Shown here piece by piece: positions 1,003 to 63,601 of a DNA stretch of 64,000 bases. Positions within the stretch are counted from its first letter, which is position 1, and every line of letters begins with the position of its first letter. The position numbers and the translations under genes were made by a program. Below the pieces are notes generated by a model. That model was not told where the DNA came from, searched no databases, and worked only from the letters and a program-made list of their open reading frames with translations. Origin of the DNA: Antedon mediterranea (taxonomy: Eukaryota > Echinodermata > Crinoidea > Comatulida > Antedonidae); the NCBI RefSeq assembly GCF_964355755.1, contig NC_092670.1, positions 20,273,201-20,337,200 of the forward strand. Reading direction: 5' to 3'.

Positions 1003-4000
1003 AAAAAAACTAAATCAAGTAATGAGCAATTGGTAGATGTGCTTGAACTGATAGCACCTGATCAACCTGCTTTGATCAATGTTGTTAAACATGCCAAGAA
1101 AACCATAACAAAATCAGTCTTAAATGGTAAGCAACTTATGAATTATTATGTCTGTTTAGATCAATGAATCACATGGTCTTGAACCTACTTTTTTAGTAAA
1201 TATAGGACGATAGGATGTTAAGTTTCATCATATTTTAAAACATTCATTTTTAGGAAGCCCCTAAATTCCCACCTACTCTTCCCATTTCCAGTTTATATTA
1301 TTCCCGATGGATTGCATTTGAATTTATGATTCATCAATCCCTAATGCAGTACCCATTGTTTTTCCCCAGAAACTGAGAATGTAGGCTTTGACAAGGTTCA
1401 GTTGGACAAACTTCTAGAGCAGTACTTTGGTCGTGAGCCAGAGCGATTCCAGCAACAGAACGTCAGATCAAAACAAATTGTTGATATACTCTTGGAGGAC
1501 ACAAAATTGAAAGCATCCACTCAAGCATCTTCTAGGTATAAAGCTCTGTCTATACTATCAAACTTCATTTGACAAAAAAATGTGATGTTTTCTTGATGGA
1601 CTTGATGTCACTACCATATCTGGGCATATCAATCACATTTTTTGTTTGATAGTGTAGACAGAGCTTAACTGTGTAGATTGTAGTCTGCTCACTTTTCCAA
1701 ATTAAAATTATTTCACTCTACTGCAACTTTGGCCAGCACAACATTGCAGAATGAATTTTATTCTACTTTCGAGGGAGCTTACTATATTTGTTTATTTTCT
1801 TAGTGTGCTGCTAGAATCAACTGCAGGGCTTTTGGTAGACTGGTTTGAACTCTTAAAACCTGAGATTGTTGATGCTGCCCCAGAATTTCAGAAACTCCTG
1901 CTATTCTCCAAGAAGTTAGTTGATGGAACTGGTGAGCAGAAGCAACACCCTGGCAGTCCTTACCTCCTAGCTGTACTCACTCACCAAGCTAGCTGGGAAA
2001 ATTTAAATCATTGTATTTCGTGGCTTCTAACATTGGAAGATGACAAATTAAAAACGTACGTATTTTAGATGGCAAGAGTTGAAACTTTTATAGTGTTTAA
2101 ATGAAGTATAAAAATGAAAAAAAGAGAGAGGTTTCTGGGCATCTTTGGTAAAGCTTTTAAGCTCTGTCTACACTATCAAACTGATTCGACAAAAAAAGTG
2201 TGATGAGCCCAAATATGGTAGTGATATGGGAATATCACATTTTTTGTCAAACTAGTTTGATAGTCTAGATGGGCTTAATATGTGCTGTCTTGGTTTGATG
2301 TCAAAGTGTGTACCTTGTGCCTTTGATTAAACTTAAATACTTTTTTTTATTTATGTCAATAGAATACATGCTTCTGCTGCCCTTGATTTTATCTGGGCCT
2401 GTCTTCATATTCCTAAGCTCTGGCAGGGAAGAACATTAACAGCACAAAAGGTAAGTTGTGGTCCAGAAGAGTTTGGTTTGTTTAATAACTTTAGGAAAAA
2501 TGAAAAAATGTATTAATGTATTAATTATTAGCATGTGGTGTTTAATGACAAATACATTTTGAAAATGGGGACAATACATTACTATTTTAAATTATAGAGC
2601 CTCTCAGAGGAAAGTGCGTTGTGCCTAAAACCAAAGGAGGTTTGTTTAATTGCTCGTTACATAATCACTGAAGCTGAGGGGCTTTTAACTGCTGTGAAGC
2701 CTGACTATAAACAACATTCCAATAACGAGCAATCAGAGATAATACAAGCTAGGTTACCTTTGCTGTTAAATTGCTGTTATGATAACAAAACAGCCATGGA
2801 CGAAGTAGTGGCTTATTTGATAAGCAAGGTCCAGCTTAACAAGTGAGTTTGTTTTTTTTTTAGTTTTTTATTCGTTAAAAAGCATTTATATGACAACTGC
2901 ACTTTAGAAGTATACTGTCTAGAATTGGATTCACACCAGATTGAACCAGATTTTGAAAAGTATTTATTCATTTCCTTTATTTTGGACAGTACATCCATAT
3001 ACAAATCATAAAAAACAAGAACAAAATGAGAAAACAAAATTTTACCAGGAAATTAACAATAACAATTTTCACAAAACCAACCTAAAATCCTAAAATATGA
3101 ATTTGCACCAATACTGATGTAGGTTAGATTGTGGAAGTACATTAACTTTAGTTTTAATCAAACAATTACAGCTGTCATGAATTCTGTTCTTAAAACTATG
3201 TATGAGTTCCTCCTCCAATATTCATAGAAAGAGGGAACGTTATTCGTTATTATAACTAGGTATTGTTTTGTTGATTTCCTAATAGTAACCAATGCAGACT
3301 ATACCAGACACTGCTCTTGGAGCTGTACATCCAAGCACCAGCAGACTGCGATGTAATCTCCATGACTTCTCTGGGTGATGTTCTCACCAGTAAGAACCAC
3401 TCTAAGGTGGATGCAGTGACACATAGGTTGCTGCTGTCATTGGTTGATATCAATCATCAGGAGAAATGGAAGGCGAAGGTGTCAAAAGCTAACTCAGCTT
3501 GTAGAAAATTGGCTGCTGTTCATCCAATACTCATGCTAAGGTAACTATAATGTGCATTTTTAGGATTTTTTATTTGTTCCGTTTTATTTGCCTGTCCTTG
3601 GTGAACATTGTCTTTATCCCTTCGATAGAGCATTAAACAGGTCCTGTGTAAATTTATGTGAATGTCTACATTAAAACGAGTATTGGTCATCTATGCAGAC
3701 TGCGGTGAGCCTAAATAATCAGTTTTCGATGCATTTAACTATACCTTTACATTGTGCTTTCCTTCTCAACATTATGCTTTAAACCATGAAACTGGAAATA
3801 CAGTAGAATCCTACTAAGGGAACATCTTTGAGGCCCATCAAAGTGTTCCCATAATATAGGTGTTCCCTTTAGGGGTGTCCTAAAGAAGGCATTTTACTGT
3901 GTACATATTTATGTATGAAAAACAATTGGAACTCCATTGATGATGCAAATAAACATACACTTTTTGCTTGTTTTACAGACAACTCGGAATGATGTCTGTT

Positions 4001-6847
4001 TTGTGTCAAGGTCGTATAAACGTGAGCTATCATGAGTTTAGAAATCGCGGACTAACAACTTTCTTCATGAACATCTTAGGCCTGATGGAGTTACTGCAAC
4101 CCCAGCTCTTCAAACAAGATAGGAAAGCCTTTCATTCAATTATTGATGCCTATTTTGGAGTAATTAAAGTAAGGGAATTAACTCTATTGTCAGATTCAAT
4201 ACTGGCCTAGTACTTCAATACTATTCCCTATTGTATGTTAGTTTATAAGCATGTTTTAGTTTATCCATGCTGTAAAGCTCTGTCTACACTATCAAAAAAA
4301 AAGTCCAATTATGGTAGTGGTATGCCCAAATATGGTAATGATATGACATCATCATGTCCATATATGGGCACATCACATTTTTTTATCACATAAAGTTTGA
4401 TAGTGTTGATAGAGCTTAATTGTAAAATTACGGAAAGATAAAATTGTATGTCGTTTAACCAGGTAAAATACTTTCATATGTATGTATATTTATTCATAGC
4501 GTTATGGAGTTCACAAGAAGCCGTTTGAAAACATGTACAGTCGTTTGGTAGTGTTGTTGTACGAGTACAATGCTCACTTTCCGACAGCTGCTCAAACTAT
4601 CCTGGAGAAGTATTCCAATATCCTAAAGTAAGTTGCACAAATCCAACATTTTCGCAGAGAAAAAGTTGTGCTACCATTTCCACTACAAGAGGATATTTAC
4701 ATTTCCATTGCATGTCTGCTGAGGTTTTTCGAGTTGCATGAGTGCATGAACTCATTTCCTGAGCTCTGATTGATTGCAAATTTAGAAACTGTTGAACTAC
4801 TAATTTTGCTGAAGCGGAAAACTCAATAAATTAATTATCTTATAAATGAATTTATTGGAACATTGGAAACATTAGATATTTATAGTCTTTGGAAATGTGC
4901 CTAAATAAAGTAATATCAATATATCTATCTATTAATTTTACTATTTTTTCTCATTAATTTGAATAGTGAATTATCATTTGTGCTTCCTGACCTCCATCAA
5001 TTAAAGTGCATCTTAGCCGGTATAACGCTGACGCATACCTCCAAGGATCACGCTGAAAATAATGAGAATAGCTTTAGAGCTGAGACAGCTGAGGAGGTGT
5101 TTGGTTTAGCGAGCAGAGAGAGCACTGCTTCTCCTACACTGCTCGTCTCTAAAGATCAAATCTGGGGGCCATCTTTGATAGCCATGTTTACAGATAGGTT
5201 AGGCAAGCATCAAGATTCTGAAGGTAACTCATTATACTATAATGTTTTTAACAGCTTTCTGCTATAAAGGGTTTTAAACCAGACAGTAAACAGTTAGTTT
5301 GGCACAGCTGCTCCAACAGCCTTAGCCATCTGTATCAAGAAGAAGAGAAACCCAACAATAAAATGAATTTCCTGATGGATTGAACAGTAAGAAATTGCTA
5401 CTTCATCCTTCCATGCGTATCAACATGGAGACATACATGATATAATCTGTCTCTTCATCTTTTTTGTTGTTGTGTTTCTACGGTTATGCAACCGAGGATG
5501 GATAACTACAGCACCAAAAAAACAAACCCTAATGGAATATATATATATATAGGCTGAAGTATTTAAAAAGGCATTCATTCATTTTTTAGATGTAACAGAC
5601 ACTTTGCATGATCTTGATGAACAGTGTAGCAAAACACCGCAAGTTTTGGACAACTTTTCTGTAAGTATTTTTAATTTAACAATACTTATTGAATGTGTGT
5701 TTTTGTATTCTTATGTTGTTTGGACTTTGTTTTCAAAGTAAAAAGCAATTAATTATACACAACTTCTGACCCTTGTAAGAATAAATCACAGGTCATACAG
5801 CTTTGGCCAACCAGTGGATGATTGTGTATTGATGCAGAATTTGATGCAATAGTTATCGTCCAAACATAGATTGCCAGTAGCATAGTATATTTGAATATTT
5901 TTTAATGCCTTTTCTTTTATTACAGCCTGATTTGATGAGGCTAATGTCTGCTTCTTCTGTAGAATGTCGGATTATGGCATTCTCTCTTATCATTAAACTT
6001 CTTCGACAAAATCCAAGGTGAGTGGTTTATGTTCTATATATAAATTTACGTAAGGGCATCTCTATAATTGTCTTAAATTTGTTAAAATTAATTATCTTTT
6101 TAGCACATCAATCAAGTTTTTGCCAGCTTTCTTACAGTGTTTAGACAGTTCAGATACTGAGGTTATTGAGACAGCAATTAAGCATTTACCAGAGTTTTGT
6201 CTTCTCTGTCAAGGTCAGATATTGGATTTTTATTAAAGGGTTTTGCTTTGTTTCAAACACCCATACTACATTACACATGTACTGCGCCTATGAGCAATCA
6301 TTGTATATATGGCGCATTATAAATGCTTTTATTACTATTATGTATTCAAAAAGTCTTAAAACAATATCAATTTTATGAATTTAATCCAATTAAATCGCTA
6401 TAATGTAATGTTCGATTTATAAAGCGCTTTTACAATCAAAATATTCTCCCAAAGCGCCGTGAGAAACAACAGAAAGAAATTAAAAAGAAAAATGATGAGT
6501 TTTTAAGAGTGTTCTCAGGTCTTGTGCTTGGCACTCTATTGTGGAATAGACTGTCACCAACCTATTGTTGTGACCTCTCTATCATTCCAAATACATTTTC
6601 AGTTGGAATATACAGTTAACTCTCCCAATACCAGACAGCTGTGGGCTTGTGGATTTTCTGGAAGTCTGGTATTTGGAATGTGCCAAAGTCATATGTATAT
6701 TATTATTTCTTCTTTGTCAAAACAGAATCTGCTTGTATACTTCTTGAGAAAGCTTTTCGAGTTGGAATTGACAAGAAGCTAGATGCTACGACCATTATTA
6801 GTGACACCATGCAACTGCTCAACATGGATATGTTGACGCCATCTTGA
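1003..6847 (+). CDS. INTS1: Integrator complex subunit 1, C-terminal 699 residues (5' part outside window)
   Basis: INTS1 is the large scaffold subunit of Integrator, the nuclear complex that cleaves snRNA 3' ends and attenuates RNA polymerase II transcription. Thirteen exons: 1003-1126, 1370-1535, 1804-2055, 2363-2450, 2598-2842, 3286-3540, 3979-4168, 4500-4627, 4967-5223, 5590-5660, 5926-6017, 6104-6213, 6726-6847. All junctions are GT-AG, phases join, and the total is 2100 nt with a TGA at 6845. Recognition rests on family-typical stretches: HPGSPYLLAVLTHQ, ALDFIWACLHIPKLWQG, IIQARLPLLLNCC, ACRKLAAVHPILMLR, GLMELLQPQLF and IKHLPEFCLLCQ. The helical, HEAT-like composition fits the known alpha-solenoid. 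The human protein is about 2190 aa, so roughly two thirds is upstream of the window. Intron after 1535 begins with a transposon only 6 nt into the donor. Confidence 0.95.
1542..1665. mobile_element. TWA-MITE copy 1 (PIF/Harbinger-like)
   Basis: Inverted terminal repeat AGCTCTGTCTA...TAGACAGAGCT with TAA on both sides (1539-1541 and 1666-1668). The left TAA is part of the INTS1 donor at 1536. Confidence 0.8.
2160..2275. mobile_element. TWA-MITE copy 2
   Basis: Same terminal repeats and internal CAAATATGGTAGTGATATG core; flanks TTA and TAA do not match exactly. Lies in an INTS1 intron. Confidence 0.75.
3800..3905. mobile_element. Degenerate pogo/Tigger- or mariner-like MITE remnant
   Basis: Starts TACAGTAGAATCC and ends with an imperfect complement (TTTTACTGTGTA), with TA at each end. 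The interior has GGGAACA/TGTTCCC palindromic pieces. A related piece lies at about 32580-32665 (GGGAACA... ending GATTCTACTGTG) and perhaps 55275-55370. The class assignment rests only on the CAGTAGAA-type terminus. Confidence 0.35.
4276..4416. mobile_element. TWA-MITE copy 3
   Basis: AGCTCTGTCTACACTATCAA at the left, TTTGATAGTGTTGATAGAGCT at the right, both flanked by TAA (4273-4275, 4417-4419). In an INTS1 intron. Confidence 0.8.
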
Positions 6848-8276: not shown

Positions 8277-11200
8277 TTATCGGCCAAATTGGTAGGACCG
8301 TCTTTTAGGGGTTGCAACAACCACTTCATCACTGTCTTCATCGCTGTCGTCTAAAACGCTTTTTTTACTTGATGATGATTTGACTGCAAAGAAAAATGTT
8401 TTTCGATTTTTTTAGATATTGACTTTATTCAGTGGCATAACAGCTATGAGCGCTCACTGGCTAAACCAAGGGGCTCCTGAGCAGTGCCCAGAGGAAAAAA
8501 CAGCAGCAGCATTAAGGTCGAAAAAGGCTAAATAGGCCTCCAGCGTTGGAGGGCCACTTAGGGTCCTTAAACCAGGGGCCTAAGACCTCTGTGTTACACT
8601 ATTGGATATATTATTATGCATTGCCTATATATTGTAAGAGAGATTGTGTAAATTCTTACCACTTGCAGGACGAGGAGATGCATTACGACTTGTGTTGCGA
8701 CTGTTGTTTCGACTCGGTTTACTGGTAACCAATGCGTCACTACTGTCATCAGAATCATCCAAATAATTACGAGCGATTTGTTTCTTAGCTTTAAAAAAAA
8801 TTAAAATTAATACTGTAATACTGTACTTGGAAACACTTTTGGTTAATTTTCAAACCATTTACAAATATACTTATTTGTATTTTTTTTTTTTTTGGTTCTG
8901 ATATATCACTGTCCAGCATACTTTTCTATTAAAACTCACATTTTTCCTGTTTTTTACTGGCATTGCTTTTGTTGCTTTTATTACTTCTAGCAGATCGTTT
9001 GGATGAAACAGACTCTGCATCTGATACTTCAGAATTCCTATACAAACATAAGCTTTAGTTTTAGCACTTGTATTTGTATGAATCAGGAGTGAAATTATTA
9101 CAAGTTCACTCCTACCTGGTATCATGGATTGAATTGTGTAGTGGCGTAACAGCTATGAGCACTTAATAGCTAAACCCAGGGGCCCTGGATCTTATGGGGG
9201 CTTGAGCAGTGTCCAGAGGAAAAAACAGGCATTAAAATATGTCGAAAAAAGGCTAAAAACACCCGAGGCCTCCAGCGTTGGAGGGTCACTTCAGGTTCCT
9301 AAGCCATGAGCCTCCAGGCCTCTGCGTTACGCCACTGATTGTATACACACATATAAGAACCTGTATCCGTCATATAATGTATTGTTTTGATGTATTATGT
9401 TAAATTGGATGCACCACTTCTGTGTGTGCCACCGATGCAAAGGTGTCATTTCCTAATAAATAATTATTATTATTACATAAACACATCTCTTAATAAACAA
9501 ATCTGTTATTCCAGTCTATTCTATATATGGTATGCATGTTCTAAATTTAGAGAATCATGTTCATATGATGAGTATGATATACTTTTTCAATTAATAATGA
9601 TTATTTATGCATTGTGTGCTATGTAGTAAGTACATAAGACACTTATTAATTAATAGAAGTGTTTATGTTTATGATTTTTGTATGTTACCTGGAAATTGAA
9701 TAAAATAAAATAGAAGTAGTGTCATTTTTAGTTCTTTTAAAAGTAGATCGAATGACACAATATAAGTTATATGATGTCACACCTTGCACTGTAACTATTC
9801 ATTTGTTTCTTTCTGCCCCAGTGTCCCCTTGCAGCTGACTGTATTGTCATGGCAACATCTTCCATACCACTATCCTCTTCTTCCTCATCACTGTAATCTT
9901 TGTCGTACTTGTTCACCGGGCTTGGTGTGTATCGATTCAACTGTTGTAGGTGTTTCTTGCGGCTTTCGTGTCCTCTATATGCCGACTGAATTGCTACAGT
10001 TGCCTGTCACAAATACAAGAAATGTTTTAGTGATTTTGTATGTACTATTAATAAGTTAGTGCATTCCCTTAAATTATTTATTGTCTATATTAGACGTAGT
10101 ACAACAGGTCAAACTTTTTCTAATGTCAATTAAAAAACAGATGTAATACAACTTACAGCATTCAATTCCTCCTCTTCTTCTTTCTGTAAAAATTAACATT
10201 TAAAATATTATATTGATATTAATATCTTTATAGATTCATGCGCTAAAAAATGTAATCTATGAAAGTCTGGTGGTCCAAGATTGAATCTTGGAGCAAACTT
10301 TTTTTTAGATTTAGTTTTTCATCTCTATGAATCTCTATTTACCATATCACTGCTGGAGGATGTATAGTTTCTTCCCTTCAGATAACATTAATTATATACT
10401 AAAAGCCATGCATACATTTTTAACAAGCAAGTTAAAAAAAAAAAAAATAAGAGCACTTAAAAAACTAGATTTAATTCGTCACTCTGACGAATTATAGGTT
10501 ATATGCATTGATTTTAATAAAGATAATTGATTTTTAAAAGATATTTTGATTCATTGATTTTCTCAGATTCTTTAATTATTTATAATATATGATAGGACCT
10601 TGCTAACGCGAATACAATAGCCGGTATCACAATCCGATCAAAGATCCCTCTGCGTATAATGTCATAAACCACATTTGCTGTTACATAATAATAAAGACAT
10701 AAGTTATTTTTTATCTAGATTTCATTATAAATCATGTGTATAATATATACACTAAGAAATAAATTTGAACAAACAATACGGATAATAAAAAAAAAATCTT
10801 ATTTCGTTTCCCAAGGTGAGACTCGATCTCGGTACCTTGAGTGCCATAGACACGAGCACACACCACCGAGCCATGCACAACTGTCTAAAAATTGTAGAAA
10901 AATTCCTCCGTGTATTTACTATGCAGTAACCACTTTGGTGCAGATAGATTATTACATACCGCAATGAATTATAATTTTTTACTATGATGACATCTCTAAA
11001 AATGTACAAAAATGATGCACTGTCAAACTATATACTTTTAACTTTAATATATGAACTTTTGGAGGAAGAAAGTTAATGTTAAGTTTGTTATTTTGGCCTA
11101 AGAAAATGTCATAATTTGTTTGATTGTCGAAATGAATTTTTTTTAATTTAATATGCAATTAATTATGGCTTAATCAATTTTTGTTCCCTTAGTTTAATAA

Positions 11201-14200
11201 TAAATCATACATAAGATACATACACTTCAAGAAAATGAAATAAAAAATATGTGTTCCCGAGCATTCTGACGATCTATATTAATTTTAAAATTTAGCATAT
11301 TTTCACCATTTTGTTAACTTACACGTGCGTAGCCTGTCACTTTTGACGTGCTCGTATAAGGCAATTACGCGTTGAAAAGTGAATAAAATATGATGATATT
11401 ATTAAAGAAAGGTTGTACAACCGAAATCGGACAAAAAGAGTGCGCATTAACGTATAACGCGCAGTGCGCGTGCAAAAATCTGCGCACTCATGGCAATTTT
11501 TTAAACGCTTAAAATTGCCTGAAACGTACTCTAATTTCATCGAAAATAAATTTTAAAAATTTTGAACATTTTAAGCGCGCGTACGCAAGCGTTATATGCG
11601 CTACGCACGTAATTGTATTGCCATATGATGAAATATGACCTGAAATTTATGAGTACCAAATTTTGTTTAATTGTGATTCATGCTTGTGAAGATATGATTA
11701 CAAACGTGATTTCGTAAAATCGCGCGTAGACCGCGTAATTTTTGATTACGCATCGTGAAAATATAACCACATCGATTCCTGGCCATAAGGAATATACTCT
11801 GAAAAATTGACTTAAATAGATGAAACTGATATCAAGATAATTCACGGACAAAATAGTGCTAAGGAAAGAATAAATAAATAAATAAAGATTTTGACAGAAT
11901 CAAGAGGTTATATGCATGATAATGCATATAACCTAATTACAGTTTTCAATTATAATAGAATTGTTAAAAGGTAGCAAATGACAGTACATCATTAATGAAT
12001 GCATAGGATAACAAGATATATAGTTTTCATGTTTTTTTTCACTTTGTTTTGGCACATTTATCTAGGCTTTATAAAGAATGTTGCTAATAGAAAACCATTT
12101 AATAGGACAACATTGAAATAAATAAAAAGCAAAAAAAAGTAGCATAAATGATAACAGCTTGAAAACTAAACAGAGAAACTGAAATGATATTCACTATACC
12201 TCATCACTATCATCATCATCGCTCTAAGATGAACCATGGAAAATGATAAACAAAATATAATGAATGATAAATAATATTATTACTTTGTATCATAGGTGAG
12301 TTGTTTTGTGTCTACTAAGGTATTAGTGACCAAAGGGGTTTTAACGATCATCAATGTACCGTATATCCTTGGGTATAATCCCACCCCAATAGAACACGAA
12401 ATTGGGCCGACTTTGCGAGGTGGGACCATACCTGGGGAATACCTGATTCAGGTAAAAAAAATGATTTGTAACCATTTCTTGTAAAAACTCATCTGAACTG
12501 GATAGAAAAAGGTCTACATCCAGACCAATATTGGGACTATACCCGGAGATATGCCTGTTTGTGAAATCATACATAAAGTACGGGGTAGGATTAGACCAGA
12601 AGTGGGATTATACCTGAGGATATGGTATTAGCAACCACCAAGGTATATATTGTTTGTATTTAAAAAAAATATTATTGCCCTATTGATGCTATATAGTATA
12701 TATTAATTTGTCTTTTTAACAAAGAATTGTACTAACAAGTTTCTTATGAGCCCGCCAATTTCTCTGAATACTCTTTGCGCTGTTGTTCTTTCTCAATTCC
12801 TGCGCCTTTCTCTTCTGTTCTTCAAGCCTAATCTCTTCCTTTTTCTGTGCTCTTTTCAGGGACGCTGTGCTTCCGCTCCGGCTGCGTGGTGTTGTGCGTT
12901 GGATTGAGTCTGAGCTGGACTGGCGTGTTAATTTACTCCTAGCAGCAGCTTCTTCAGATTCCTTAAGTATTTGTGCAGTTATCTTCTTTAATTTGCCATT
13001 CAAATCTTTAATCTCTTGTCTGCAATAAATATAACAAATCTCAATAACACCAAATATGTAATATTCTAGTAGTGTAATGTGCCCAAATATGGTAGTGATA
13101 TGGTCAAATATGGTAGTGATATGGTCAAATATGGTAGTGATATGACATCATTATGTCCATATATGGGCACATCAAATGTTTTGTTTTGTTTGATGGTGTA
13201 GACAGAGCATAACATGTGTTATCTAAGATAATCTATCTAAGTATTGCTTTATTCAAATGTTTTTAAAGTTGTAGTGAAATAATCTAGTTCTTTTATTGAT
13301 GGTAGCGAGTAACAATAATATTATAAAGAGTATAACAAAGGCAAGGTCTCCTGATTGTTTTGTTTTCAAATGCAGTAACATTTGTTTACAATATTAATAT
13401 AATAATATGTAAAGCACATTTGAACATGTTTATTCATGAAAAGGGCACTATACAAATGTGGTATTATTATTATTATTAATATTATAATTATGATAATCAC
13501 AACTTCAAAACCTTACTCTTGTTCGTCTATTGTTTTCCGTAATTTTGATTTCTCTTCTTTCAGTCGTTTATTGTCTTTTTCATGCTTTTCAATGGTTTCC
13601 ATCAACTGTCTCTTATTAGCTTCTGCTACAGAGTTCTTTATCTCTCTGCCTTTTGCCTCTTCCACCTCCTTGATAAGAATTTAAATTGTCCCTTTAGTGT
13701 ATATAGGCCTAGGTTTTTTTTCTTTATACAATAACATATAACATAATCTTTTTTACTGTTTGGGCTTTCTTGGTTTTTGTTCACACATGTGTGTTAGCAC
13801 ACAACCTATTAAGCCTTGTCTACACTATCAAACTTTATGTGACAAAACAAATGTAATGTGCCCATATATGTACATGATGATATCATATCACTACCCTATT
13901 TAGAAACATTATCCCTTTTTTTGGTCAAAGTTGGATAGTGTAGCCATAGCTTTACATAACCACTTTCCAGGATCTAGATAAGTGTGAACAAGACCCTAGT
14001 TTTTTTCTGAAGAACTAAATATTATGTGTTACCTTTTCAAGTTTGTTGATGGTAGCTAGTAGATTCTGCCTATCCATGTCCTTGTAGTCTGTCATTTAAA
14101 AATGCATTTAAAAATTATATTTTTATATGGTAATTCTTTCATACAATCGTATTTAGGCAATTATAAGGTAATAGTACTATATATTTATTAGAAAGTATTA

Positions 14201-16890
14201 ATCAAAGTATTCAGATCAGAGAATTAAACTAATTGGTTGGGAGTGACTTTGTCTTTAACACAATGGTACCTTCTACTCACCTCCCTTTCCCCCTTTACCC
14301 CCTGACCTTGGGCTCGATTTGTCCATAGCTCGTTCCAAATCCAACTTCAATAGTTTATTTTCACTTTGCATTCGTTGGTTAGCTTCTGTCAGCCGTAAAA
14401 CTGTCCCATTCAATGCTTTTAATTTTGCATTGTTGTTACCACTTTGTTTCATTGACCTGTAGGTTAAAAATAAAAGTAGAGCTGTCCATGTAAGTAGAGG
14501 TGTCCATTTAAGTGGGAAAGGCTTATTCCAATAAATACAATATAAATCAAACAGAATGTTTTAAACTAACCTTGATAGTTTTTCATTTTCACTTTGCTCA
14601 ATTCGTAACCTTTGAACCTGAAATAGTAATATGTAAATATTAGTAGTAATATATAGTAACAGTCACATGTTATATAAATAGTATTAAGCTCTTTTTACAC
14701 TATCAAACTAGTTTGACAAAAAAAGTGTGATGTGCCCAAATATGGTAGAATATGACATCATCTTGTCCATCACATTTTTTTTTTCACATAAAGTTTGATA
14801 GTGTAGACAGAGCTTTACCTCTTGATAGAAAGTTTCCATTGCAATTTTCATTTCTTCAATATTAGTACATTTCATGTCTTCGTGCAATTTCCTAAAAAAT
14901 AAACAAAACCCGAAAGTATTTCATGATCTTTAAAATTAATTATAAAAACTGAACTTTCTAAAAAAATTATAAACCATTCCAAATACTACAATATTAACCT
15001 ATTACAGTAGTTCTCAGTGTAAAGTATGTATACTGCAGTAACTTAAAAAGTTTGAACAGTTACCATTAAAAAATTAAAAACCTACTTAAGTGCGTTTTCT
15101 TTTTCCTTAACAGCCATTTCAAGCTTAACGTTCCTTTGTTTCAATGTTACTATTTTCTAAAAGAAGAAAGATTTAGATGTTTAGATTTTAATAATAATAC
15201 TTTAAACATTTTGAAGGTTTAAAAAATTATTTTACTTACAGCATTGGGATCAATAATTTTACCACTTGAGGTCATTTTCATATCCCCAGTCTGTAAAAAA
15301 ATCAGAACACCTAATAAATGTGTAATATTTAGACATGAAAATGAAAATAGTGACATACCTCACTAGTCTTCATAAATAGTGACATACCCTACTGGTCATC
15401 TTTAACAGTGACCAACCCTACTGGTCATCATTAATAGTGACATACCCTACTGGCCATCATTAATTCATCAATATATTTCTCCTTCATTTTATTGTCATCT
15501 TCAAGTCGTCGATGGCGTGCCTTTATCAGCTCACTCTCTTGCTTAAGTACAGTGACCGTCTTTCTTAACTCCAGTATGTCATCATACATGTCCTCTTGAG
15601 GTTTGTAAACTGGAACTCCTTTCGTACTCCTTGTAAATGTATCTAGAAGGAAGTAAGTTCATTGACTGTGTTACTACTTAAAAATTGAAATATCTAACTC
15701 TGAAGCTGATGTATTACTTAGTAATATTAATATACTGCAGTTACTGCAGAAGAATATACAATTACAGTCTTACCATCCATAGCTGATTGTGATCTTCGTG
15801 ACTTTGCTGGTAGGCCCAGAACAGCTTCTCGAAGGTAGTCGCTACAATTACCACCAGGTACAGTTTTCTTACCAGTCAAGCCTAGGTAATTACTGCTTTT
15901 CACACTTGCTGTCAACCCTTAAAATATAAAGTATGTATGTTAAAAATCAATCTCCCAAAAGAAATAATGCTAAAGCTTTGTCTATATGGACATGCCACTT
16001 TTTGTGTCAAACTACTTCGATAGTGTAGACAGAGCTTAAGTTGTAGAATTTAGAAATGTGTATGATGTTTTTTTTTACTTACCTTGCCCTCTGTGCATTC
16101 CTTCAATCCATAATTCTTCTGATGTTTTTTTCGGGCCAGTAGCTCTCATTGGTTGTCCATACGGCGAGGCTTTTTAAAAGAACAAGTTTAATATTATATT
16201 TTATTTTGTATTGAGTTTTATTTAGAGTTGGTGAATGGAAAATAGTAGTTTATTATTTTATTAATCAATGCTCACAACATTTACATAAAATTAATACTTA
16301 CGTGGTTTCTTGACACGAACATTTTTTGAAACTTTCTTTTTCTTTTTTTTTGGGTTTCCTTTAGGTGAGTGTAATTTTAATTCATCTTCTGAAACATTGG
16401 ATGCAAAGCTGTCATCTGAATACTCTGCAAACTGTAACAAAAATATACAATTTTTATATAATAAACGCTAAATATTTTCAGGGTATATAGAAATATTGGC
16501 GAACGCCACATCATAATTAATGAGGAAAAGGGTTGGCGAGCCTTATTCATATATCTTTATAGATTGGGTTGAAGTGAACTATAACATTTCTATTGCTGCG
16601 ATACAAGGAGCCTAAAGTGGGCCTATAACTATATTACTACTACTAGGCCGCCAGCCTGGCCTGGTCCTTCTTTATAAACTCTAGCTAGGCTAAAGCACTC
16701 TCCCCCACCGACCGTACCCACTCATTGGACTGTTAGTGTCAATAATTGTAAAAAAGATGTAGGCCTAGGCCCAACTCTAGGGTCTAGCTTGCTATAGCAT
16801 ATTGACTAGGCTTATATATCGTAAATACATTATTATTTATTCAATATTAATGCCCTAGATATGTTATACCTCCTTAGCTGAAGTGGGCAT
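8277..16890 (-). CDS. IQCE: IQ motif-containing protein E, complete (697 aa)
   Basis: IQCE sits at the base of primary cilia, where in mammals it tethers the EVC-EVC2 complex with EFCAB7 for Hedgehog signalling. Nineteen exons in transcript order: 16890-16870, 16431-16302, 16169-16083, 15917-15774, 15642-15446, 15290-15240, 15156-15086, 14891-14819, 14617-14571, 14456-14281, 14088-14033, 13668-13517, 13019-12737, 12223-12200, 10183-10157, 10003-9783, 9037-8940, 8788-8660, 8383-8277. Total 2094 nt, all phases compatible. Start chosen at MPTSAKE, the only ATG in phase with exon 2. Layout: basic low-complexity N-terminus (about 1-75), long coiled coil (about 130-480), IQ motifs at 482-496 (SIQRNWRAHKKL), 514-534 (AIQSAYRGHESRKK) and 563-582 (TIQSAARGHWGRKK), then a Ser/acidic tail. 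The IQ spacing and coiled-coil segments match IQCE. Exons 14 and 15 are in-phase microexons. The donor of exon 8 abuts a MITE; that of exon 5 is repeated four times. Confidence 0.92.
8431..8600. mobile_element. hAT-like MITE, copy A
   Basis: Begins AGTGGCATAACAGC and ends GTGTTACACT, and shares its interior (CAGAGGAAAAAACA, GGCCTCCAGCGTTGGAGGG) with the copy at 9140. Termini of the AGTGGCGTAAC type suggest hAT. It lies between the last two IQCE exons. Confidence 0.55.
9140..9336. mobile_element. hAT-like MITE, copy B
   Basis: Ends AGTGGCGTAAC and GTTACGCCACT are exact inverted complements. Flanks AATTGTGT and GATTGTAT agree at 6 of 8 positions, as expected of a decayed 8-bp target duplication. 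In an IQCE intron. Confidence 0.6.
10811..10878 (-). repeat. tRNA-like sequence, probably from a SINE
   Basis: On the minus strand there is an A-box-like TGGCTCGGTGG followed about 30 nt later by a B-box-like AGATCGAGTCTC, then CACCTTGGGAAAC. The acceptor stem does not pair well, so this looks like a tRNA-derived SINE head and not a working tRNA. Confidence 0.35.
11320..11770. repeat. CpG-rich block of alternating GCGCGTACGC-type words
   Basis: An island of CpG words (GCGCGTACGC, AACGCGCAGTGCGCGTGC, CGCGCGTAGACCGCG) inside otherwise AT-rich intron DNA. Similar wording recurs at 21770-21815 and 22660-22700 inside the 1645-bp transposon, so it is more likely repeat-derived than a promoter island. 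Confidence 0.4.
13076..13208. mobile_element. TWA-MITE copy 4, left end degraded
   Basis: Contains three tandem CAAATATGGTAGTGATATG units and ends GGTGTAGACAGAGCA. The left terminal repeat is missing. In an IQCE intron. Confidence 0.65.
13812..13951. mobile_element. TWA-MITE copy 5
   Basis: AGCCTTGTCTACACTATCAA at the left and TAGCCATAGCT at the right, flanked by TTA on both sides (13809-13811, 13952-13954). Confidence 0.75.
14697..14814. mobile_element. TWA-MITE copy 6, abutting the donor of IQCE exon 8
   Basis: Flanked by TTA on both sides (14694-14696, 14815-14817). Read on the minus strand, the TAA at 14817-14815 supplies positions +2 to +4 of the donor GTAA, and the transposon starts at +5. 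Confidence 0.8.
15348..15460 (-). repeat. 29-bp tandem repeat of the IQCE exon 5 splice donor, about four copies
   Basis: The unit AGTGACATACCCTACTGG plus CATCATTAAT recurs at 15351, 15380, 15409 and 15438, exactly 29 bp apart. On the minus strand each copy carries an exon-like CCAGTAG followed by a donor: GTATGT at 15445, GTTGGT at 15416, GTATGT at 15387 and 15358. Only the first (15445) keeps the reading frame; reading on past it meets TAA after four codons. Confidence 0.8.
15974..16036. mobile_element. TWA-MITE copy 7, 63-bp minimal form
   Basis: Almost only two terminal repeats back to back, with TAA duplicated on both sides (15971-15973, 16037-16039). The internal tandem core is absent. 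Confidence 0.7.
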
Positions 16891-25448: not shown

Positions 25449-25590
25449 GGGTAGGCCAGGTATTGTAAGTATAGACAGTATGTAAGTAGGCCAGGTAGGT
25501 AATATATAGGGCCAGGTATGCAAGTATAGACAGTATGTAAGTATAGGCCAGGTATAAATATATGTGGATAGGTATGTAGGGTAGGATCGA
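25449..25590. repeat. Degenerate tandem repeat rich in GTAAGT
   Basis: GGCCAGGTAT plus AAGTATAGACAGTATGTAAG recurs 56 bp apart (about 25453 and 25509), followed by shorter AGGCCAGGTATA fragments. Each unit contains donor-like AGTATGTAAGTA words on the plus strand. Confidence 0.7.
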
Positions 25591-25599
25591 GATCCGTTA

Positions 25600-50300: not shown

Positions 50301-53300
50301 GTTGCGTTCTTTCCATGCAGTTGTTAAAAATAATTTACAATATTTGTCAAAGATGTTACTTGCTAATACATAGTTAATATTGTTTATACATTGGATTTGA
50401 TATTCTTCATGAATTTCTAGGTCGTCAAAAAAAAGGTGATATTTAAGTTCAGGTGAGCTTGACATGAATAAGTCCCATATTTTATGCAAATCATTGTTGC
50501 ATAGATCTTCTTTAGTAATTTACTCTCTGTACATTAGTGTCCAGGATGAGAAAGTTAACCTATATACAGCTCAAAAACTGTTTTGAGGAAAATCCTGGTA
50601 CTATGCCAGCGCTACTGGCGCTTGAACTTACTCAACCTAGTGATTGAAATACAAGCACTGGTTAACCGCCAAACCACACTGTCAAATGACAAATTTTAAA
50701 AAATGAAACTACTGTTGTCATATGTTTTCATCACCTAAGTCATGACGATGATGTTTAAAATATTCCTGATGGTACTACCATAATCACCGATCCTGGATTG
50801 TATTCTAAGCATATCTCCTAGTTCCCAGGGGAATGTCCCAGGCATTCCGCATTCACTATCTATACTCTTCCAAGTATGATTTGTTTCCTGGCTTGAGAGA
50901 AGCATTGCAGATATTGGCCAAGGGCATTCATACATACAATCTAAATACAATTACAGTTGTGGTAGTAATTCTACTGCAGGTAATGCAGTAATTCTACTGC
51001 ATTTATTGCAGTAATTCTATTGCAGTTAATGCAGTAATTCTACTGCAATAGATGCAGTAAATTCTATTGCAGCGAATGTACTGCAGTGAATGCAATATAA
51101 TTCTACTGCAGTGAATGCAGTAATTGTACTGCAGGTAATGCAGTAATTCTATTGCAGGTAACAATGCCGTAATTCTACTGCAATTAATACAATAATTTTA
51201 CTGCAGTTATGCAGTAATTCTGCTGTACTGAATGAATATGAATACAAAACATTTTGTGTATATTTTTTAATTTGAAAAAAAATGTATTTTTGTTGTATTA
51301 TTTAAATAAATTATATTATAATAGTAATTTTGTTATTTTTTCAGAGGTGCTACTTGATACTCAATTAACACAAGTTATGTTATTTAACTCTCACCTACAA
51401 TCATTATGGAATATTCCACGTGATCAGCTCACAAAACAGGTAACTTAAACTATGTACAAAATGTTTTATTTTCATAAACAAACATTCCAGGTTTCTAGAG
51501 GATAATCGGCCAGTGAATCTTTTGTGAAGAGGCGTTGTTCACAGCAAAATCCTACACCCTTGGTAAAGAATCCCAACCAAACTTTGCAATCAATCAATAC
51601 CGCCCTCTTGTGTCCACTCTGTTTCTGACCTATTCACTGCTTTTCATTGGCTAATCTCTAATAGCATAATCTAGTTTCTTACATTGATAGAATCTTATTT
51701 TAGCTCAAAATCAAATATTTTTCCATTGGGTATTTGTTGAAGACTATTGTCAGAAGAAAGCTATTGTTCAAGTCTGTTTATCCAACCTCTGATCTCTACC
51801 GGCCAATCTTATCGTGTGATCTTCCTCCAGGGCACTTTATTCACTCATTGTAATTTTCTCGGTTGTTGTACCACGAATCAATTATATAAATGAACTCTAC
51901 TTTAATCCTATTCAGAACATTTAGTGATATTTGTTCTGTTCTTTTTTTTCATTCAGCTTGTTTGCTGTCCCCAAAGTGACAAATTTTAATGGTTAATGAG
52001 AAGAATTTCTTTGTCCAGTTGAACTTTTAATTGTAACAGTGACTTTAATTTTGTACAACCAAAGTATAGATTGGTTTTGTGTCTATCTAGTTCTGTTTCT
52101 CTATCAATGTAACATCTTTCTCTCTTTTACTAATTACCACTCAGTGGCCACCAGGATTTTGAAATAAAGGGGAGAGGAGTGGACTTAAAATTAAAAAAAA
52201 TTAAAATTAAATGTTGAACTTAATTTTCCAAATTTGGTTCTACATTTTAAACTATAGCATTGAACTGAGATCTGGAAATCTCATTTCATTATCTACAGAT
52301 GCAACACATGCATAAATACTATTTTATCTAATTTTGTTTATATAAAAAAATGTCAAATCATTCGGTACAGAAGGTCCTATCTAACCGTATAACATTTGAA
52401 AGGAATCTAGCTATAAAAAGATTAACTATTTGGTGTACCTTGGATTTTACCAAGAGATTTCTTAGAGTGGCAGCTATTCTTTGAAAAAAAATGGTGGAAG
52501 AAATTACTGGTTGATGCACCACCTCGCCTGATAGGTCACAGGATCGCAGCAGATCTGTTATTTAGGATTTACTTTAATAATAAAATGTTACAACTTATTT
52601 TTTGCAGGTTACGTTAAGTTATGGTGACCGCGTGAAACATAAAAACATTATCAAGATTTTAGATGGTCATTTTAGTAATGAAGAAGACCCCACCAGGTAA
52701 GCTAGAAATCCGGCTACTACATAATGGTCTTTAACAAAATGGTCGCCATTGTTTGGAAATTGGTAACCTTTTCTTCTCATAAAAAGTTGCTTTAAAGTAA
52801 AAATGCGAACAATTTTATTTTATTTTTCAAATGTCATATTGTTCAGAAAGTTTCTTTGTATTTTGCATTTCTGTGAAATCCAAATTTTGAATTCCAAACT
52901 TGTTTTATTGTCTGATGTGTGAGAGTTTGACAGATAGGCCTAACAGCAACCGTTGTGTTTGTTTATTTTGAGTCATATTTAATTTCCTCATTCTGTGGAT
53001 AGTTACAGTATAAAAGAAAATACAATGTGTACCAAGCAGTGATTGGCTTCATTGAAAGTACTGTATTCCTTAGAATAGTAGTGTTTCCTTAATCAATAGA
53101 ATACATAGCACTCTGATTATATCGTATGTTTGATTTGTTTTTTCCAAAGTTAAAGGTTTATTGTCGCCATGAACAATTTTTTTTTACATTTTTGTTGTAT
53201 ATGCCATTTTAATGTCACAGAATACTTATTCACTTTGACTTGCTTGAAAAAACTTTGACTTAAAGGAAAATTTGTCTGTCAGACAATTGTTTTTTTGGTA

Positions 53301-53567: not shown

Positions 53568-54560
53568 ATGCTTATTAAAGAATATCTATCTATGCAGTTA
53601 CAGTTAGTTTATGGAGGTGTTTGCAGACAAAACTGTAAAGCTTGGAAAGGATTTGATTCCTCCATTGATATGGATTGCAATCTGCTACTCTACACCATAT
53701 TGTCTTAACTAAAATTGTGTCTCAAAGGTTTAGTTTTCTGGACTCGACACATAGCTCATGCCAATATTTTAATACTATGCATGTACTGTAGCTGCGTGGC
53801 GTGTCATGAAAACGAAAATTCGCTATGCTGTACACGCAACCTGAACTGGAGTTGTATTGGAGAAGATGTAAAAGAATTTACAATGGAGTTGTTTCCAGCC
53901 ACCGATACTTGTTGAATGAAAGAATCCCACATACGAGTCTGGTTTCCAATTTATTCCATAAGATAAAAATAATTTGTTTGTTAAATAAAGCAAAAATATG
54001 CTGCTTGAAAATGCTCAGAGAAATCTTCCAGATATGAAATTAGTTTCACATGTACCAGGAAAACTATACCGTATATGCCCAAGTATAATCCCACCCAATA
54101 GTTTATAAACAACACTTTGGTACAACAATTGTTAATGCAATGTACAAGTCCCACCTAAATTTCACCAAATTCTGTACCCAGCGGCCCACTGGGACTTTCT
54201 TTGTCAAATACGGTAGTGTCCTTCATGTACTTAGTCTTCCATTAAATGATAGTCAAACTCTCACAAAATATGACAAATCTAGTGAAAGAAAAAATGTGAG
54301 AGTACAGTCTTTTTTTTGTAATGGTTTTCTCCATCCAGTAGCCTATACATTTTTAAGGATCTTGAAGTCCTCTTAATGACTGGCAACTGTCACCATTGTT
54401 AAGCTACTTCACATGAATTGAGTTGCTCTTATCATGATACCAGAGTATCTATACAAGTTCCATGTAAATTCCCTATTTGTGATAATACCAGGTGCATTGC
54501 TAATGACACAGGTGCTGCCAGGTGTCTTAATTAAACTAATTAAGATAATAAAAGTTGTAA
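53568..54560 (+). other. Fringe 1 3' UTR
   Basis: No coding exon. AATAAA occurs at 53984 and 54547, giving alternative UTRs of roughly 430 or 1000 nt. The open frames 53715-54376 are short and lack any family resemblance. Confidence 0.5.
54547..54552 (+). promoter_or_regulatory. Candidate distal polyadenylation signal of fringe 1
   Basis: AATAAA followed by T/G-rich sequence (GTTGTTTTGAGG) about 20 nt later. A proximal alternative is at 53984-53989. Confidence 0.45.
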
Positions 54561-56480: not shown

Positions 56481-59400
56481 ATGAGAATCACCTTGAAGAA
56501 AGTCCTTGCTTATGTCTTTTCTGTCTGTATCATAGATTCTATAATCGTGTGCGTATATGTTTCTTTACGTCATGACAAGCAAGAGTTTCTTCAAAAGGTG
56601 CATCAAGATTTCAACAAGGATAAAATTTATTTTGTCAATGAACCGCATTTTGAACGGTTAATAAAGGAGTATAGAAGTCAAGAGGAATATCCAACTCGCA
56701 TTTTATTTGAGAGAGATAAAGAATTTATAAGTAATAACGATGACATAATCCAACAAAATGTAGTATCGGTGGAAGACAATTCGCAAAAGAAAATAAATTA
56801 TAGTAAAACATTTACCACGGTGGTTGAAAAATCAGCCAACAGTCAACATGGTAGATCAGAGGCCAGTGGTGGTACCAATCGGCCAAAATTTATCCCTCCG
56901 GGTAAGACGATAGAAATAGGAAAAGTTGTATATCAAAATTCTCCACCCGCTATTAAGCCAAAGTTTATACAACAAGGTAAAGTATTTTGTTTTTATTTAT
57001 TATATCTGTAACTGTATTGTTTCTAACATTTAACTTGTTCCATATACTGAAGTTATTTACATGAGATGAAGTGAAATAACGCTGTTAACTACATGTAGGT
57101 CCTTTTTTTTAAAGGTGCCAAGAAACTTTCAAATGCTCTTCCACAAACGCAACAAAATAAACCAATTTATATAAAGTATGTACAGCTACCAAATAACAAG
57201 GTACAGCCAGTTCATCTGATTCAACAGGAAACCCCTCAAACAAAAGTGTCAAATTCTGGTGATCATGTTAATTTAGATGATATCTATCTGGCTGTAAAAA
57301 CAACGCAGAAATTTCATCGGAGTCGACTCCAGGTGCTATTGGACACCTGGGTGTCTGTTGCTCCTCAACAGGTAAGCTTCATCTTTTAAATTAAATGGAA
57401 CAATTATTTTCAATCACAACGTTTACTGGAACCATACTAGAAAGGTAGCCCAATGTACATATTTCCGGTCGCTAATACAAGCAATTCTTCTGTTACGCCT
57501 ATTACTTGCTTCGGGCAAATTATGTACTTTTTAAACTTGCCGAATAAATATTGTTGTTATTACATTCAGGCTAGATTCTAACAAGTCTCTTTATAACCTC
57601 AAAGAACTGTTGAACACTATTTGGTCTCAAAAGATCAATTTTCATTTTGCATGAACTCAAAAGTGAAGAGTGCCTTTAAAGATACACCAATGCTTATAGT
57701 CTTATATAATACTCCCATGAGGTGAACTTATACCCCAAGGGTGTACATATGCGACATCAGTTACCAACTATTGTACTCTATTCTTAGTCAGAAAATGACA
57801 GAAAAAAGTTCATATACTGTCCTAGATATTAAATTTAAAAAACTTTTATTTAGAGAATTTACAAAGATCAGATAACATTCTGTAACTAACTTTAGTTGTA
57901 TATTTATTTAATACTATTTACAAGTTTATTATCTATTGTGAAAGGGAACAATATTAGAATTTAATTTACTAACTTTACCTCTTCCGCACTTTTCAAAGAG
58001 TGCTGTTCTATTGTGTTGTAAATTTAATTAGGTTAGAAAACTATTTAAAGATAACAATACACAACTACCCTAACCTACATGTGTAAAAAGTCATCATAGG
58101 GAGAGACTGTAGTAAAATGCCACCATGGGACTGAATTAAGCTTTTATGTCCCTTTCTGATACGAGCATTGAACCTTGAATTCTCCTCTTGTCTTCTCTCA
58201 TGTTCCTTTGGTCAAGCCATCATAGAGATAGTTCACTATGCTCATGGTGAAATAATTTAACTAACTTGTTTCTCCATCCTATGCTCAAGAATAATACTGT
58301 ATATATGGACCAGTTTATGATTCTGTTTCCTGGTCTGTTCACACTGAATTATTTACCAGGTAAGTTGGCTTCCTGAACCAATTAAATAGCGATCAGGAAT
58401 CAATTTATCAGGTAAATAACTATGTCTGAACACGGCTTATATGTCAAATTTCTTGCTGAGTCAAATTAAAGTAATCCAATCTATCTGATGTTACGGATTA
58501 TTAAAGCTTAACAATTCTAATTGATGTTTATTTTCGGTTTTTTTCAAAGCCTCCCATTTCACATTTCTTTCTGTGTAATATTACTACACAATTAGTTAAA
58601 TGATGCGCAATAAATTTCTTTTGCAGATAAGAAAAAAAAATTCCACACATTGTGACAACAGTCATATTATTTGTTGATATAGATTATATCTGTATTCAAA
58701 ATTTTTCACTTTATATTTATGTTGGATCAATTTCCTCATATGAGTCTTAAAAATCGCTTGTTCTTTGTTGTATCAAATTTATGATAACCATCTATTTGAT
58801 TCAGTAACAATACAAAGTATCTAGTCATTGTTCCACAGAAAGTATAAATATATACTTCAAAGTTTTACCATCTACTGTTTGTTACTCTCCATATTATGTG
58901 GAAAGTTGTGTAAATTCACAGCCAAGCACCTGGAAATTCAAGTTTTTATGAATAGATTCTTGCACCTTTTATACTTGTTCCTTTTCATTTGCACATCACA
59001 AGTTCATTTCAGTAACAGAAACAGTTAGGCGTTTCAAATATGATATATTTTTCAGTTTATGTTTGATCAATTTCCTCATAAGTCTTAAAAATCGCTTTTT
59101 CTTTGTTGTATCAAATTTAGATTACCAATTGACTTAATGAATTTTCAACAATAATAATACGTTTTCTTGATAACCATCTATTTTATTCAGTAACAATACA
59201 AAGTATATAGTCATTAGAAAGTATAAATATATACTTCAAAGTGTTACCATCTACTGTTTGTTACTCTCCATATTATGTGGAAGTTATGTAAATTCACAGC
59301 CAAGCACCTGGAAATTCAGGTGTTTCTCAATTGACTCACTTGCACCTTTTAAGCCCTGTCTACACTATTATATCAAACAAGTTTGACAAAAAAAAGTGTG

Positions 59401-62400
59401 ATTAGACAATTTGGTTTTTCTTTATATCAGGACCTCACAAGTTTATTACAGAATCAGTTAGGCGTTTCATAATGTGAAATATATTCCCATTGTAAACTGC
59501 ATCAATAGGACCTATTGTTAAAAATTATACAATTTTGAAATAATTTTTAAAATGATATATTGTAACAGATGTCGCTAAACTGGCTCCTTGTCTCTGGGAG
59601 TGTACTCTTTTTTGAAAGGTTGAAAAACTGTCAATTGTCTGGTTTTCAAATACATACTAGTTATCTCCCAACCCCACCCTCAAATATTAGTCATATTATT
59701 AAACATAGTAATAAATTTTATTCATAATATTTTATGATGAGAACTGATGCAGCTGCCTCAATACACACATCTTTATGATTCATTGATATATTCTGTTTTG
59801 CAATCAATAATGGGGAGTCCCCATAACAGCAGTTTCTATAACACATGACTAATAATTGGTTGTCATAAACAGTAGGTCGTTTCTTTGTAATGTCTATTAC
59901 CATGTGCTTTTGTACAAAGCCTATTGTTATCAACCTATTGTTTTAAAGCCACCTCCAGGTTTAAAATTTCTATTGTTTCATTCAAACTATGATCATTGAA
60001 GAAAATGCCACTTTTTTCCAATAAACAGAGAAGCACAATGAGTGTGAAATATTACACATTGAAGCCTTTGACTCTTTTATCATAAGATAATTTCAAAACA
60101 TGTTTTTGTTGAATCATGGAGCTATAAATTGATCAATGGTTGAGCCATTTTAAAGTGGATTTAAAAAAAAAATTTTTTCCTGATAAAACCATAATATAAA
60201 TGAAAGGCCCATTTCCTGAAAATCAACATTTTTCTTTAACTTTTTAATTATAAATTAATTGTCATTATTTTAAAGCAAAATCAATATTTCAAGTTTTTTT
60301 CCATTTAGCAATTAACATAGTAAAGATCTATGCACCGCTGAAAGGATGATGTTCCATTTTTCAAAATTGTCCTTTCTGTTTCCAAAAAATCTTATCATTA
60401 ATATGATTGCAATTTTTTATTATTAGACTAACCATAGTAGATTTATTTCCTTTAACATTTCAGAGTTGGCGTTACTGTAGGTTAGAGTTTCGTCACTTTC
60501 TGTTCAAAACTGTTCTCATGGCAAAGTAGTTTACACAGATCTTTCATGCATGACATACATGTGTTGGATAATTTGTTTTGATTAGGTTGTCATATTGATT
60601 TGGTGAACACAATGAATTCTGAACAATGAAATGCGAGAATCATTTGTTTGCTCACTTTTCATTAATGGCCCAAAATGAAGACAATAGTTGAATTCAATTA
60701 ACAAAAAGAGAAATTCCAAAGTGTTTTTTTTTTAATAAATGTGTATAAAAAAAATGAAATATATTGTTTTAATGAGATCATGGAGGAATAAAAAATCTCC
60801 ATAATTACCTAAAGGAAAGAACTAGTCATATAACAACACGTAATAAATAAAAGTAATACTTTTTATGTATTTGTAAAATATAAATTTATAAAAAATAGTA
60901 ATATTAAATAAAATAAAAATATTTCTCATTTCAGGTTTACTTCTTTACTGATGCAGATGATGAAGAATTTCAAAAGAAAACCAGTAAGATTTCAAATTAT
61001 TTTCTAGCAATTAATTTCAGTTAATTTTTTCCCTTTTCACATGCTTTCACAGTGCTTCCAGACGTCTGTTCTTTTGCTCTTTGTAAATTTAAAACCATCG
61101 AAAATTCTCTTTTTTATTAGAAGTACTTAATATTTAATGGAAATATAAAGCATGTGATTGATGAATGAGGTACATTTTTTAATATTCTGTACCAAATCGC
61201 TTACTGTACCTAACTACGGTTACACTGGGTCATCAGGTCTCAAATTATAAAAACAGAGAAGACTTGTCATGAGGTAATGAATTCCAGTGGTCGTTATCCA
61301 AAGCCTTTGAAGATTGTACCTTCTTAACCAGTTATCTTTTATTATTAAATAGATCAGAGAGATCAGAGAATGGTTTTGAAGTAATGGTTTTGCAAAGAAT
61401 AGCTTTTGTTGTCAGGTCTATTAACTAGGATAATACCCTGGTTTTATTAAAGTATTTTAATATACCACCAATCTCATTTTCTTCAAAAACAGTTTTAGCG
61501 AACAATAATCAGTCTGTTTAAATTTGAGAAATCATTTGTCTGAATTTTCTTTGTAAATAACATAAACACTGTAGCAATTTTATGGCAGACAGTAAAGGAA
61601 GTTAGTCGGTACTATAACACAGGTACAATTGTAGGCCTATGTAATTGGGCTGTTTGAAATAAGGTACATAAAAGAGCCTGTTCAATTTTGTTTTCAGTAT
61701 GGAAACTTTTCAAGGTTTCATTTTATGTGTTGGTGTTTTTTACAGTATATGTTAATTTTTTTAATTTTATTTATTTTTTTGCAAAAGTGCTTCAATTTTG
61801 TAAAACTACATAATGACATATTTAAAGTTTGGTTTTATCTATTTTATTTTGTTTAGGGGCAACAACATCTAATTTGCTTTTCAAACAATTTCAACATAGT
61901 AGGGAATAGAAGTAAAAATTGGCAATGATTTATTTACAATTTCTGTATTTTTAGATGGTCATATGATAAATACTAAATGTCCCTCTCGACATGCAAGGTA
62001 AGTTTTTATTTTTCCTTTCACTCTGCATACTGACAGAAAAAGATTAGAAAAATATAATATGGAAAAATCAATTCCTAAAACATGGAGATATGGTTTGTTA
62101 GATTGAAGGAGAAACCAGAATTCTCGTAGGCACTTTATAACAACTTCATAAATCCTGAAAATCGTATGACACAACTGGGCTTCTTTTAGTCTAAGTCCAA
62201 AGACCCAGAACAAAAATGTTATGGTTTATAGGGGTAATCGTTTATGGCATGTTTTACAATACAGTATTGCTTTTTTTATAGGTCGGCTCTTTGTTGTAAG
62301 ATGTCATCTATGTTTGATAACTTCTTAAAATCAAACAAAAGGTAAATCGAATATATAAATTAAAGGGATTGAGTCACACACTATTTGTACTCTGGCGGTA

Positions 62401-63601
62401 ACTGGTGTCATCCATAAAACACTGACAGTAATGCATAGAAAAGATATGATAAAATGAAAATCAATTTAATTAAAGAATCTTCCAATTGCTATGTATATTT
62501 TATTAAGTCGTATCATTAATAATAGATTATAGAGTAGGTTATACATGACAAATATTATTTTTGTATTATGTTTAGTTGGTTCTGTCACGTTGATGATGAC
62601 AATTATTTAAACCTTCGTGAACTAAGGAAATTGTTAGATTTATACCAGCCTTATCATCAAGATTTGTACTTCGGCCGGTCAAGTACAACATTACCAATCG
62701 AGGCCTACAGTACGCAGACACCTGTGGTAAGTAAAAATCTCTGAGTCAAGTACTTAGATCACCTATTCAATACTTGTAGAGAGTTATACCAAGGCCAGTG
62801 AAGTATTACAAGCCTATTCAAGAAGTACAGCTTCAATAAAGCACTGAAGATTATAAATAGAAGGTCTTATTCAGGAGAGCCAGTTGGGCCTAACATGAAT
62901 ATCTTGGCCTAACACTAACATATTCACTTACTTAAACCATGGATTAAAGAATAAACAAAGTCTTCTTATATGATTTTGGGCGAGGATTGTATTAAAATAT
63001 CTGACATGATCTTTAATTATTAGATAAAATTATGATACAAAAGGATCTAAAAGCTGCATTAACTGCTTTGTTGTAATATATGTAACATTTTCTTACTTTT
63101 TTAGCAAAAATATCAGTTTTGGTTTGGTACGGGAGGTGCTGGTGTTTGTATAAGTCGAAAGCTGGCCAATAAAATGGAGCCTCATATAGGGTAAGTGAGT
63201 AATTGAATATATTCATATTCATTGTGATAGCGGTTTTTACTGCAAGTAATTAAAAGTTCATTTATTGGCCAAATATATAAACAGCTTTACAGTCCATAAT
63301 ATTCCTTAAGTTCACCATTATGTGATTTAGAAGTCGGACACTGTTTTTCAATAGTGACCTTACACCTTTCGAAGTGACCGACATGCTATTTAATCATTGT
63401 TTGACCAGAAAGTTGAGAACTCTCTTAAGTTTAAAAGTGCGCTTAAAAGTGTGTTTACGATGTAAATAAAGCTCTCCATGTTGTTGTTTATTTTGGATTA
63501 CTGTTAATCCTTGGTTTTGTTGTGTTACAGGGGACGTAGAATGGTGTATACGTGTGACAGCATCCGAATGCCTGATGATGTCACTGTTGGTTACATAAAT
63601 G
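56481..63601 (+). CDS. Fringe-type glycosyltransferase 2, tandem paralogue; 404 residues seen, 3' end outside window
   Basis: Same family and presumed Golgi role as fringe 1. Eight exons: 56481-56976, 57115-57371, 60935-60983, 61955-61997, 62282-62341, 62576-62726, 63105-63190, 63531-63601, ending in phase 1 at a GTGAGG donor. Exons 3-8 have exactly the lengths (49, 43, 60, 151, 86, 71 nt) and phases of fringe 1 exons 2-7. ATG 56481 was chosen because MRITLKK aligns with MRMSVKK of fringe 1. Anchor at about 8-29 contains an unusual Asp19. The stem is long, Gln/Ser-rich and split by an extra intron. The catalytic part starts [22 protein letters not shown] at 308-310, [11 protein letters not shown] and [10 protein letters not shown] are intact. 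The NCS sequon of fringe 1 is replaced by TKC. The last three exons should lie beyond 64000. Confidence 0.93.
58332..58437. mobile_element. Small MITE-like inverted repeat
   Basis: GTTCACACTGAATTATTTACC at the left is complemented with mismatches by GGTAAATAACTATGTCTGAAC at the right. Interior is short; class unknown. Confidence 0.4.
58690..59345. repeat. Direct duplication of about 300 bp
   Basis: GATCAATTTCCTCATA..AGTCTTAAAAATCGCTT through CAAGCACCTGGAAATTCA is present twice (about 58724-58940 and 59065-59320), the second copy carrying a 60-bp insertion with ACAATAATAATACG. Copies have diverged by small indels. Confidence 0.85.
59352..59410. mobile_element. TWA-MITE copy 15, truncated
   Basis: Only the left arm remains: AGCCCTGTCTACACTATTA, then GTTTGACAAAAAAAAGTGTG. 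Confidence 0.6.

Follow-up and report, generated by a model that had tools for sequence, protein, structure and literature searches.

The stretch of DNA analyzed here, called the window, comprises 64,000 nucleotides of the Antedon mediterranea genome (C1:20,273,201–20,337,200). The genome is 354 Mb in 18 contigs, and contig C1 accounts for 41.4 Mb, or 11.7%, of it. Going from left to right, INTS1 enters the window with its 3′ part on the plus strand, followed by an IQCE-like gene and IFT27 on the minus strand and a pair of fringe genes on the plus strand:

1024..6835, plus strand: INTS1, C-terminal part; phmmer match to Integrator complex subunit 1 (7cun), aligned from ~1805, with earlier pieces placed by position
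8727..15918, minus strand: IQCE-like gene with IQ motifs and a coiled coil; Pfam IQ, name from human motifs
18394..19849, minus strand: IFT27 (RABL4) small GTPase in four exon pieces; best PDB match IFT27
26335..52649, plus strand: fringe gene 1; Pfam Fringe, genome search and exon motifs
56481..64000, plus strand, running just past the window end: fringe gene 2, the tandem copy; Pfam Fringe, genome search and exon motifs

A first-pass annotation had placed the INTS1, IQCE, IFT27 and fringe families together in this window, and all four were recognized, IQCE partly by its likeness to the human protein. It had also packed the four-family set into 60 kb. The co-location stands, but fringe is a tandem pair, and the recognized exons of the INTS1–IQCE–IFT27–fringe cluster cover ~86 kb and exceed both window edges.

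The INTS1 pieces, joined in genomic order, are collinear with Integrator complex subunit 1 (7cun; phmmer E 1.5e-68), matching residues 118–175, 1607–1685, 1745–1938 and 2118–2187. The first matched piece lies at ~C1:20,251,740 (L008:8540) and the last ends at window position 6835, so that the gene starts 21 kb or more upstream of the window. Because the first matched piece aligns to residue 118, the gene start is expected somewhat further upstream. In the genome search, the INTS1 Pfam domain matched only at C1:20,256,213–20,257,086, upstream of the window. Two pieces were put in INTS1 by position only: 1024–1101, which was outside the phmmer query, and 1345–1569, which was in the query, unaligned, and without a Pfam match. 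A period-30 tandem array of 30.8 copies (window 6–928) lies inside the INTS1 span and contains long low-complexity open frames.

Within the IQCE-like gene, exon 9770–10006 encodes IQ motifs (Pfam E 2.9e-8), and exon 15434–15658 matched the short coiled-coil family DUF2205, barely above cut-off. Exons 14276–14560 and 12719–13147 matched no Pfam family above cut-off, and a comparison of the gene with the PDB returned a single weak match, CFAP91 at 0.007, and no useful relative. The name rests on the human protein, to which alone the N-terminal and coiled-coil segments were matched; the gene is on that basis a candidate IQCE, and it is the least secure gene call in the window. The neighboring GTPase is better defined. 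Its pieces have Intraflagellar transport protein 27 as best PDB match (E 2.3e-17), compared to 5e-11 for the best ordinary Rab, Rab6, which places the predicted protein nearer IFT27 than other Rab-like GTPases.

The fringe genes were recognized from several exons each. Fringe 1 has Fringe-domain exons with Pfam E values of 3e-11 and 1e-21, and ~15.6 kb separates its first two recognized domain exons; fringe 2 has one such exon at 62538–62741 (E 1.6e-13), while its region 56358–57008 gave no Pfam Fringe match. Pieces carrying the DDDNY, GGAG and PDD motifs were detected in both genes, TLSY was among the fringe 1 pieces, and the NCS and FNSH pieces were detected in fringe 1 only in the exon-motif search of the two genes. 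A further fringe 2 piece lies just outside the window end, at local position 64,269 (in L011). Stop codons occur in two of the six fringe stretches matched in the genome search, where the match extends past the open frame. With a Fringe domain, the DDD motif and a predicted membrane anchor (an N-terminal hydrophobic segment judged by eye) in each, both are putative Fringe glycosyltransferases. Over five core pieces the two share 75 of 129 aligned residues (~58%), and the pair is therefore not a recent copy. The predicted origin of the pair is an old local duplication of this Notch-modifying enzyme. The fringe 1 span also contains a period-33 tandem array of 30 copies (window 47935–48943), again with long low-complexity open frames.

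IQCE and IFT27, both cilium genes, adjoin on the minus strand with ~2.5 kb between recognized exons. Common regulation could be what keeps this pair next to the fringe genes, in which case selection would act on their order, and the long inter-exon gaps of fringe 1 could house enhancers. In human, however, IFT27 and IQCE are apart, so that joint regulation is not essential there, and we regard this explanation as improbable.

Human fringe genes are three in number, LFNG on 7p22, MFNG on 22q13 and RFNG on 17q25. We asked whether gene families from human 7p22, 22q13 and 17q25 are over-represented on C1, which makes up 11.7% of the genome. The families were chosen by their human positions and in batches, each before its location here was seen, the later batches after earlier results. 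Ten outside families were searched, with window genes not counted. Eight gave an unambiguous location, one (TMEM184) was ambiguous, and one, POLR2F (Rpb6), had no match in the genome search and is perhaps intron-split, an absence that carries no weight either way:

EIF3L: C1, 18.59 Mb; one weak extra fragment on C11
Fascin: C1, 18.90 Mb
Cytohesin: C1, 20.725–20.729 Mb; one of six Sec7 loci, PDB Cytohesin-3 at E 2e-71
GET4: C1, 21.00 Mb
MAD1: C1, 22.42 Mb
Tweety: C1, 0.5 Mb (20 Mb from the window); weak exon matches, one of three above cut-off
AMZ: C7; single weak match (30 bits)
PSMG3: C6; single weak match (30 bits)
TMEM184 relatives: C1, C5, C7 and C10; ambiguous among several loci

Six of the eight unambiguous families are thus on C1 (binomial p = 5.7e-5, with the share of C1 in genome length, not in genes, as the chance model). 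Scoring TMEM184 as a miss gives six of nine (p = 1.5e-4). Five of the eight fall within a 3.8-Mb stretch around the window, 18.59–22.42 Mb, which makes up 1.1% of the genome and was chosen post hoc. Cytohesin, fascin and tweety were each found at a single locus in the genome, in keeping with a non-vertebrate. Among families duplicated in the human blocks, fringe, cytohesin, fascin and tweety are all on C1, AMZ (C7) being the exception; among human single-copy genes, INTS1, IFT27, EIF3L, GET4, MAD1 and the candidate IQCE are on C1, the exception being PSMG3 (C6).

The same searches supplied nine comparison loci, which were not planned beforehand, and one of them is on C1:

Other Sec7 loci, five: C11, C9, C6, C6 and C5; four told from cytohesin by eye, the C5 locus nearest BIG-type exchange factors (PDB)
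Other fringe-family locus: C6:20.2 Mb; chondroitin synthase relative (PDB)
Other fringe-family locus: C1:32152678–32153127, 12 Mb from the fringe pair; core-1 galactosyltransferase relative (PDB, E 3.5e-50)
Other fringe-family loci, two: C10 and C8; from the fringe-family genome search

The contrast between six of eight outside families and one of nine other loci bears directly on whether a translocation could have united genes of different ancestral chromosomes by coincidence. AMZ and PSMG3, being off C1, fit such an event and count against a shared ancestral neighborhood, though both are weak matches; given the concentration of the other families on C1, we consider coincidence very unlikely. 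The same contrast agrees with the proposal of the first-pass annotation that the cluster reflects pre-duplication linkage with differential retention. Ancestral linkage at chromosome scale is well supported, and the linkage appears to be inherited rather than assembled in this lineage.

Sequence flanking the cluster was surveyed over 100 kb before the window and after fringe 2. Upstream of the piece at which the INTS1 match begins, BUD31 comes at a distance of ~6 kb and a Rac-like gene (best PDB match RAC1) at 57 kb. Human relatives of Rac and BUD31 lie in the same set of regions; noticed in the survey, the two genes were left out of the six of eight. At the Rac-like gene (~C1:20.192–20.195 Mb), three partial copies of the 3′ exon peptide suggest local duplication. 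The upstream 100 kb also has kringle and SRCR exons, and 3′ of fringe 2 there is a phospholipase B-like gene. Directly after fringe 2 (L011:5348–6379) comes a frame barely above the V-ATPase_H_N cut-off, which by reading looks armadillo-like, and then one with a TIR domain (E 1.4e-13). No RNA families were found in the window at the gathering threshold. A repeat built on a 21-base tandem unit is dispersed through the window and its surroundings, and its 16-base core was matched 58 times (at most one mismatch) in 16 of the 28 sequences examined, with matches on C1, C5, C6 and C11. It probably represents a mobile element whose interior carries the tandem units:

Window positions 2213, 4330, 13087, 13884, 18283, 37743, 41413, 45630 and 49321, as well as flanking loci: dispersed repeat with a 21-base unit

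Whether the order INTS1–IQCE–IFT27–fringe within 86 kb is itself ancestral is a separate claim from chromosome linkage, on which the C1 test bears. We consider an ancestral order plausible. Alternatively, the linkage may be old and its tight order may have arisen later, through local rearrangement along this lineage, which is compatible with a linkage-only explanation. Other family members are dispersed, at 18.6–22.4 Mb and at 0.5 Mb, and the vicinity also contains unrelated genes and transposon-like frames. Human LFNG and IQCE, however, are still close neighbors, which favors an old closeness of fringe and IQCE at least. According to PMC7269912, ancestral linkage groups have mostly lost their internal gene order, so tight adjacency should not be presumed ancestral. 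Weighing these points, we give local rearrangement slightly less than an even chance; the tightness within 86 kb may owe something both to ancestry and to local shuffling.

For linkage on the scale of the chromosome, the C1 neighborhood is very probably the ancestral, unduplicated counterpart of human 7p22, 22q12-13, 17q25 and further blocks. The first-pass annotation had named two human regions, 7p22 and 22q. Both fit, but two are too few, as the third fringe block, with RFNG on 17q25, was omitted. The paralogon described in PMC3560075 is wider still. The early vertebrate whole-genome duplications would have turned the ancestral region into 7p22, 22q12-13, 17q25 and further blocks, with the fringe, cytohesin, fascin and tweety families retaining at least two vertebrate copies. 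Going by human positions, the 7p22 copy alone would have kept INTS1, IQCE, GET4 and MAD1L1, and the 22q copy alone IFT27 and EIF3L. Loss of the alternate copies after duplication would then explain the human split.

This reading makes INTS1, IQCE, IFT27, EIF3L, GET4 and MAD1L1 candidate single-copy markers tying 7p22, 22q12-13 and 17q25 to one chromosome, of use in checking pre-vertebrate karyotype reconstructions and in tracing which duplicate lost which gene. A literature search pairing IQCE, IFT27 or INTS1 with fringe returned nothing on synteny, as judged by title. In general terms the claim has precedents: the fringe/cytohesin/fascin paralogon was published in 2012 and the duplicate status of the human regions is already known, so that the gain is one of resolution, not of kind.

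In the 2012 study, which dealt with somatostatin receptors, the paralogon occupies blocks of human chromosomes 7, 16, 17, 19 and 22 and has 30 neighboring families, FNG, CYTH and FSCN among them; the trees of 23 of these families supported expansion during the two rounds of genome duplication in early vertebrates (2R; PMC3560075). This SSTR2/3/5 paralogon shares the fringe, cytohesin and fascin families with the C1 neighborhood. It was, however, built from multi-member vertebrate families, and section 8 of PMC3560075 includes neither INTS1, IQCE and IFT27 nor invertebrate gene order. The chordate linkage groups reported in 2020 from amphioxus, scallop and vertebrates (PMC7269912) likewise show linkage conserved at chromosome scale between invertebrates and vertebrates, and have duplicated descendants. 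That account stresses a largely scrambled gene order, whereas the C1 neighborhood has several members within 86 kb.
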